Assembly (NCBI GenBank): GCA_024654445.1
Contig: JANLHP010000029.1
Span: forward strand, 1-46,260
Direction of reading: 5' to 3'
Length of the DNA stretch: 46,260 nucleotides
From: Candidatus Curtissbacteria bacterium
GTDB taxonomy: Bacteria > Patescibacteriota > Microgenomatia > Curtissbacterales > GWA2-41-24
Shown here: positions 33,756 to 34,548 of the stretch, one piece after another
How the letters are laid out: the number at the start of each line of letters is the position of its first letter
How positions within the stretch are numbered: the first letter of the stretch is position 1
The notes under the pieces: generated by a model
Databases searched by the model: none
Seen by the model: the letters and a program-made list of their open reading frames with translations, nothing else
Told to the model about the DNA's origin: nothing
Position numbers and translations under genes: made by a program

Positions 33756-34024
33756 AAAAGTTCACCTCCTTGTTTTTAACCACAAAAAAACTCGCCTATC
33801 TTGGCGAGTCTTGCTTTGTGTGGTTTTTTAGTTTTTTTACTTACTTCTTACCACAACAAAACTCGCCGCTTTGCGAGCTTTAAAAATAAATAAAAAGTTT
33901 CGTAGTAAACTAAGAATGTTAGACATTAAAAAGTAGCAAACTTACTGCCCTACTGCCAATACCACCTCAAAAGAGCATTGCTTTTCTGCCTTTTTAATAT
34001 ACCAAAACATCCTAAATTAGTCAA
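33756..34024 (-). promoter_or_regulatory. promoter and terminator-bearing leader of the 61-aa gene
   Basis: No gene is seen in this stretch. Promoter TTGACT (34024-34019), 17-base spacer, TATATT (34001-33996). The leader then has a weak hairpin GCTCGC...GCGAG followed by TTTTG, and a strong one, ACTCGCC-aagata-GGCGAGT followed by TTTTTTTGTGG. The latter is extended by flanking CCACA/TGTGG pairing and sits just before the SD. The design predicts conditional premature termination. Confidence 0.6.
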
Positions 34025-34086: not shown

Positions 34087-34306
34087 TAGCAGGGCTGGGA
34101 ATCGAACCCAGGACCTTGGCGTTATATCACAGCCTTGTATATTTTGTAGCGGCGGTAGGAATCGAACCTACGACCTAAGCTTTATGAGGGCTCCGCTCTA
34201 ACCACTGAGCTACACCGCCCTAAAATATACAACCTGATATATCAGAGGAGCCTGAAAGGAACTGCTGATATGAGTGCCACGCTCTAACCGACTGTGCTAC
34301 CCTGCC
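34087..34306 (-). tRNA. interrupted tRNA(CAT) whose insertion contains a second tRNA
   Basis: 5' half 34306-34269: acceptor GGCAGGG, D-arm GCAC...GAGC (one A·A mismatch), anticodon-stem TGGCA, loop CTCATA. 3' half about 34123-34087: AACGCCA, variable AGGTC, T-arm CTGGG-TTCGATT-CCCAG, acceptor CCCTGCT, discriminator A. The acceptor halves pair at all seven positions (G·U at 1-72) and the anticodon stem pairs at four of five. The roughly 145-base interruption carries a complete tRNA (34147-34219). CCA is not encoded. It could be tRNA-Met or lysidine-modified tRNA-Ile2. Function after splicing is inference. Confidence 0.7.
34147..34219 (-). tRNA. tRNA(CAT), elongator Met or Ile2, nested in another tRNA
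   Basis: Full cloverleaf on the minus strand: acceptor GGCGGTG/CGCCGCT (seven pairs including G·U), D-arm GCTC/GAGC with GG in the loop, anticodon loop CTCATAA (anticodon at 34186-34184), variable AGGTC and T-arm GTAGG-TTCGATT-CCTAC, discriminator A, no encoded CCA. The anticodon stem has a C·A at 31-39. An 11-base inverted repeat (34222-34232 and 34135-34145) flanks it. Confidence 0.9.
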
Positions 34307-34440
34307 AAGTCTGTATTCTATCAAATTCTCAAAAAAAAGACCCGACCACTTGTGCCAAGTCCTTTTCTTAATTTTTGAATGTCTCAATCCAACTTGCTTG
34401 CAAGTTGAAAATGAGAAACACCGAAACATTAAGTTTCTTG

Positions 34441-34474: not shown

Positions 34475-34548
34475 TGGTAGCGGGGGCGGGAGTCGAACCC
34501 ACTTCTGGAGATTATGAGCCTCCCGAGATACCGTTTCTCCACCCCGCG
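34475..34548 (-). tRNA. initiator tRNA-fMet (CAT)
   Basis: CGCGGGG...CCCCGCT leaves position 1-72 as a C·U mismatch, and D-stem pair 11-24 is A-U; both mark bacterial initiators. Anticodon loop CTCATAA (34516-34514), T-arm GTGGG-TTCGACT-CCCGC, and 3' ACCA is encoded, unlike in the two neighbouring tRNAs. The usual three G-C pairs above the anticodon loop are partly replaced. Confidence 0.93.

Follow-up and report, generated by a model that had tools for sequence, protein, structure and literature searches.

Group I introns are found in the anticodon loops of bacterial tRNA genes, and some integrative elements insert into tRNA genes and repair the damage with a copy that they carry. The locus described here lies in a window of 46,260 nucleotides (the whole stretch of DNA that was analysed, from a Candidatus Curtissbacteria bacterium) and holds, on the minus strand, a tRNA(CAT) gene whose anticodon loop is interrupted by DNA containing a second, complete tRNA(CAT) gene. 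This nesting, put forward in the original prediction, was confirmed, since both tRNAs are called by ARAGORN, the outer one after joining of its halves.

The interruption resembles that of group I introns in its place, the anticodon loop, here after CAT. However, there are only ~73 nt besides the inner tRNA, the sequence is that of a dispersed repeat, and no group I model is matched. The Rfam group I and group II intron models gave no match at the gathering score in the window and none at E 0.1 in the nests, in agreement with the early impression that the insert is unlike either class. Concerning archaeal-type introns, the MFE fold at the exon ends consists of the anticodon stem, an internal loop and a 6-bp helix, which does not match a strict bulge-helix-bulge. 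The integrative elements of tRNA genes are alike in that the lost function is made good by the invader itself, whereas here the whole element measures ~146 bp, lies in the anticodon loop and not at the 3' end, and carries a separate tRNA that is complete.

MITEs (non-autonomous miniature transposons) share with the present repeat their terminal inverted repeats, a short AT target duplication, the lack of coding capacity and their dispersal. The terminal inverted repeats are here ATATCAG/CTGATAT, and the AT target duplication is seen at a single locus, by comparison with intact orthologues. The differences are the tRNA cargo and the tandem units sharing an AT.

REP sequences are defined as palindromes with a GTAG or CGTC tetranucleotide tag at one end (PMC3733652). 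The present repeat is like REPs and BIMEs, other short palindromic repeats and the Rickettsia palindromic elements in being short, dispersed, hairpin-forming and mostly intergenic, and in forming mosaics of differing units, sometimes within genes (PMC3733652). Nevertheless, membership of the REP class fails on the tag, as 0 of 54 units have GTAG or CGTC within 8 nt of an end; the ends are ATATCAG/CTGATAT instead, the units share an AT, and in one type of copy the loop contains an entire tRNA gene. By analogy, the element would act as a mobile, MITE/REP-like miniature palindrome that brings with it a substitute for the gene it interrupts. We know of no described case of such a repeat bringing a complete tRNA gene into another tRNA, and a literature search for nested tRNAs of this sort found none, although subscription papers and preprints were outside its scope and absence is therefore unproven.

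Layout of the nested locus

The features are listed below in window coordinates, in the order in which they begin on the minus strand.

34478..34548, minus strand: initiator tRNA-fMet (ARAGORN, Rfam), upstream of the nest, marking the syntenic locus initiator to elongator tRNA-Met
34315..34320, minus strand: -10-like TAGAAT within TTTGATAGAATA, putative promoter of the whole nest, from reading the sequence
34270..34306, minus strand: outer tRNA-Met(CAT), 5' half (acceptor, D-arm, 5' anticodon stem and CTCAT; GGCAGGG TA GCAC ... TGGCA CTCAT), the resident elongator, with its orthologue intact in L016 (G001) and L010 (G014)
34239..34271, minus strand: hairpin repeat unit I, ATATCAGCAGTTCCTTTCAGGCTCCTCTGATAT, with an AT common to the unit and the outer CAT
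34124..34269, minus strand: insert, [ATCAG ... GTGAT] plus the duplicated AT, precise with respect to the uninterrupted CACTC-AT-AACGCC of relatives
34124..34240, minus strand: hairpin repeat unit II, ATATCAG ... AAGGCTGTGATAT, its loop holding the inner tRNA and its AT common with unit I (CTGATATATCAG)
34222..34232, minus strand: distal arm of unit II, 5' side, TTGTATATTTT
34147..34219, minus strand: inner complete tRNA-Met(CAT), "type A" (ARAGORN, Rfam), probably the working elongator tRNA-Met
34135..34145, minus strand: distal arm of unit II, 3' side, AAAATATACAA
34087..34123, minus strand: outer tRNA-Met, 3' half, AA CGCCA AGGTC CTGGG TTCGATT CCCAG CCCTGCT A

The positions first proposed for the nest were right within one base, the outer 5' half ending at 34270 and not at 34269. 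The inner tRNA (34219-34147), with anticodon CAT by ARAGORN, scores 67.4 bits with the Rfam tRNA model (E 1.2e-12). Without the insert, ARAGORN identifies the outer sequence as tRNA-Met(cat), and 19/21 stem positions pair; the mispair A31.C39 is also present in the intact genes of relatives, and the D-stem mispair A12.A23 is new in the window genome. The inner and outer sequences are clearly different in this genome.

The predicted 11-bp inverted repeat flanking the inner tRNA (34232-34222 / 34145-34135) is perfect, which was matched in 2/2000 shuffles, and the further outer helix ATATCA/TGATAT exists. In the MFE fold the nest forms a single long arm that ends in the inner tRNA and is paired as far as the outer anticodon stem, with a modest z of -1.8. 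In G001, G002 and G012, elongator tRNA-Met genes are preceded by sequence resembling the TAGAAT-bearing TTTGATAGAATA, and the TAGAAT at 34315..34320 was not picked up by a consensus promoter scan. The initiator tRNA has C1.U72 in place of the usual C1.A72, as do several relatives. Elsewhere in the window, positions 100-983 match 16S rRNA, with 884 bases aligned over the whole 1533-position model; the alignment is already at about model position 740 by base 201, and most of the 3' half is thus missing or displaced.

Intact orthologues of the outer tRNA in G001 and G014 adjoin the initiator tRNA as in the window genome. Where these relatives read CACTC-AT-AACGCC, the window genome reads CACTC-AT-[ATCAG...GTGAT]-AT-AACGCC, and the comparison shows that the DNA was inserted precisely and that 2 bp, AT, were duplicated. 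This duplication rests on the empty-site comparison, as the repeat search pattern itself requires ATAT/ATAT ends.

The hairpin repeat and its distribution

The insert is not intron-like but consists of two units, arranged in tandem, of a hairpin-forming repeat that is dispersed in the genome, AT-[ATCAG...CTGAT]-AT. When the nest DNA was searched against its own genome, the left part of the insert was matched on contigs C23 and C17, both matches being hairpins with the same ends. The pattern ATATCAGN{10,40}CTGATAT is present in 15/15 family genomes with 1-30 sites each (8 in the window genome and 30 in G007), and a reversed-pattern control gave zero matches throughout these genomes. The window itself has one site, 34239-34271, with 0.00 expected by chance. 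The units measure 28-55 nt and have a 7-bp end stem, a stem length set by the search pattern.

Two sorts of unit are common, I (ATATCAGCAGGTC...GCTCCTCTGATAT) and II (ATATCAGATT...AAGGCTGATAT), which often stand head to tail with a common AT, giving CTGATATATCAG. None of 95 genomes that belong to the class but not to the family contained this tandem form. Copies of I+II with an ordinary loop and without a tRNA are present at G007:C2:38838-38917, G004:C21:6338-6417, G004:C25:6848-6927 and on G006:C32, and it was by comparison with these four that unit II of the nest was assigned; the 11-bp inverted repeat around the inner tRNA is its distal arm.

Regarding the contexts of 40 loci, the copies are mostly outside long open frames and mostly not in tRNAs. 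Three of the 7 other copies in the window genome lie <=100 nt from a tRNA gene (G000: C10:1852, C17:67217 and C31:399; P ~2e-5), and copies near tRNAs were also seen in G007, G009 and G012. At G000:C10:1831-2010 (L052, L382), a 5' fragment of tRNA-Arg(TCT) has its D-loop broken by the same repeat at CGG-AT, giving CGG-AT-[ATCAG...CTGAT]-AT with the same AT target; a second hairpin (TTTTGAG/CTCAAAA) follows the fragment, and an intact tRNA-Arg(TCT) is found just downstream. The hairpin-forming dispersed DNA repeat is probably mobile.

Nests in related genera and the need for CAT tRNAs

A search of related genomes for the same nesting, as had been recommended, found the junction CTCAT|ATCAG with a closely similar inner tRNA and the invariant CTCATATCAG in three other genera of the family (G004, G005 and G008). 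Across the nests the inner tRNAs score 67-71 bits (Rfam) with 20/21 stem pairs, and in all four they stand between perfect arms of 8-13 bp whose sequence differs among nests. The outer tRNAs pair at 19/21 positions in the window genome and at 17/21 in both G005 and G004. The outer tRNA is broken in G005 by a T-stem with 2/5 pairs, in G004 by an anticodon stem with 2/5 pairs, an acceptor mismatch and inserts in the D-loop and T-arm, and in G008, as judged by eye, by large inserts in the D-loop and T-arm. Decayed halves in relatives, which the original prediction had foreseen as counting against an essential outer tRNA, are therefore present in all three. The hairpin inserts added to the broken outer tRNAs occupy the D-loop, T-arm or anticodon arm. 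G004 and G005 have in common an extra hairpin in the outer 3' side and differ in the stems that are broken, which points to separate decay after the nest was formed.

Further D-loop and T-arm hairpin inserts in the outer tRNAs of G004 (L009) and G008 (L008) come from other sequence families, and this suggests that tRNA-like DNA in this lineage is invaded by more than one family of hairpins. In G011 the same inner type stands alone behind promoter-like sequence, with no recognisable outer 5' half. In G001 (L016:1501-1660, G001:C79), an intact outer-type (B) tRNA-Met lies between 12-bp perfect inverted repeats with a degraded GGCTACG tRNA-like 5' half in front; it looks like an independent second nest, so displacement may have occurred more than once. 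The AtpA tree is too weakly resolved to tell a single-clade origin of the nest from several origins. Regarding a viral origin, the junction pattern had 61 matches in IMG/VR, and none of those that passed a rough tRNA-5'-half filter was a tRNA. In a GTDB-wide scan the pattern was too loose and the matches passing the same filter were not tRNAs; the pattern match in G369 was not a tRNA either.

It had also been proposed that the cell needs three CAT tRNAs (fMet, Met and Ile2), which could make the outer tRNA essential. The proposed count of tilS shows that the need for three fails in this lineage: at the curated cut-off, none of the 15 family genomes and none of 21 other class genomes had a match to TilS (lysidine synthase), which makes tRNA-Ile2, and three weak matches read as GMP synthases (named by inspection). 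Consequently, a tRNA-Ile2(CAU) is not to be expected, and a single elongator tRNA-Met is sufficient. With a D-arm-to-CAT pattern, a single convincing tRNA(CAT) besides the initiator was found in most relatives, among them G002 and G007, which are 99% complete; the sole one found is of the inner type in G011 and of the outer type in G014. According to this family pattern, the initiator and one elongator tRNA(CAT) are enough. With TilS absent, a single non-initiator tRNA(CAT) in relatives and the halves decayed in three genera, an essential role of the outer tRNA is unsupported. The inner gene, being complete and having a CAT anticodon in a family where TilS is absent, is probably an elongator tRNA-Met and not tRNA-Ile2.

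ATA codons are in use in the window genome (46/2676), so a tRNA-Ile(UAU) is expected; this tRNA is present in G001 and other relatives. In the window assembly, tRNA-Ile(UAU), Leu(CAG), Leu(GAG), Val(TAC) and Phe tRNAs were not found, and its own gene counts are hence incomplete and not decisive. Partial matches that raised the suspicion of a split tRNA-Ile(TAT) were tRNA-Val or tRNA-His.

Displacement and its alternatives

The best explanation, to which we give a probability of roughly three in four, is that a repeat carrying a replacement elongator tRNA-Met inserted in and displaced the resident gene, the outer tRNA being its remnant. This reading builds on four observations: there is a family of repeats, one of its units has a tRNA in the loop, the insertion is precise when set against intact orthologues, and the nest recurs with broken outer tRNAs in three other genera. 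A tandem palindromic (MITE/REP-like) repeat with an elongator tRNA-Met in the loop of its second unit would have entered the resident anticodon loop with a 2-bp AT duplication. The promoter of the resident gene would then drive transcription of the nest, and RNase P and a 3'-end nuclease would free the inner tRNA from the end of the hairpin. This inner tRNA would be the only elongator tRNA-Met that the cell needs, and the outer halves, left with long tails, would be by-products, most simply waste, and free to decay. In the window genome the displacement would be at an early stage. Counting against this reading, the outer tRNA of the window genome has one new stem mismatch only and folds as a tRNA when joined; the single new mismatch (A12.A23) means either a recent insertion or an outer tRNA that remains in use. 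Furthermore, the same anticodon-loop site is occupied in four genera, which random insertion does not explain unless the nest was inherited or exchanged.

The soundness of the outer tRNA in the window genome, where the joined halves make a good tRNA by ARAGORN with most stem positions paired, could also be due to a new bacterial tRNA intron, in which nucleases excise the tRNA-bearing hairpin and an RNA ligase joins the outer halves, so that both tRNAs work from one transcript. In the MFE fold the insert pairs as far as the outer anticodon stem, although z is only -1.8, and in 4/4 nests perfect arms of differing sequence surround the inner tRNA; both features would fit such an intron. However, the inserted units belong to a dispersed repeat found mostly outside tRNAs, three other genera have a broken outer tRNA, the absence of TilS removes the need for a second elongator tRNA(CAT), and no group I or II intron model is matched. 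RNase P and RNase Z cuts would, in addition, leave tails of ~50 and 23 nt on the outer halves. To our knowledge, a repeat-derived, tRNA-bearing intron is not a known class in bacteria, and on balance we consider this explanation improbable.

Movement of a tRNA by the repeat would be unnecessary if the resident gene had been duplicated in tandem and later hairpin inserts in and around the spare copies, with rearrangement, had produced the nested look. The repeat-broken tRNA-Arg(TCT) 5' fragment just upstream of an intact tRNA-Arg(TCT) in the window genome would fit this, and the repeats near tRNAs exceed expectation. Nevertheless, the unit that has the inner tRNA precisely in its loop shows the standard ATATCAG/AAGGCTGATAT ends, the two outer halves run collinearly and break exactly at the AT, and inner and outer differ clearly in sequence in this genome, which makes this origin unlikely. 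An assembly artefact might be suspected in a genome assembled in 33 contigs and without some tRNAs, but the same junction in three other, separately assembled genera argues that the nest is not one, and we regard this as hardly credible.

If displacement is correct, the locus would be a compact case in which a repeat carrying a spare displaces an essential gene of the same function. The related genera would then form a series of stages, from a near-intact outer tRNA through a broken one to the inner tRNA alone, and this could be a route for tRNA gene turnover without loss of viability. It would also mean that inserts in anticodon loops of reduced genomes need not be introns.

Finally, at positions 33935-33985 of the window (minus strand), promoter-like sequence precedes a conserved block, GCAATGCTCTTTTGAGGTG, after which come a variable hairpin and a T-run. 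It has no match in Rfam. The block is present in six family genomes (also at L007, L010, L014, L016 and L229), in at least five of them near the tRNA-Met locus, and together with its hairpin it looks like a small RNA.
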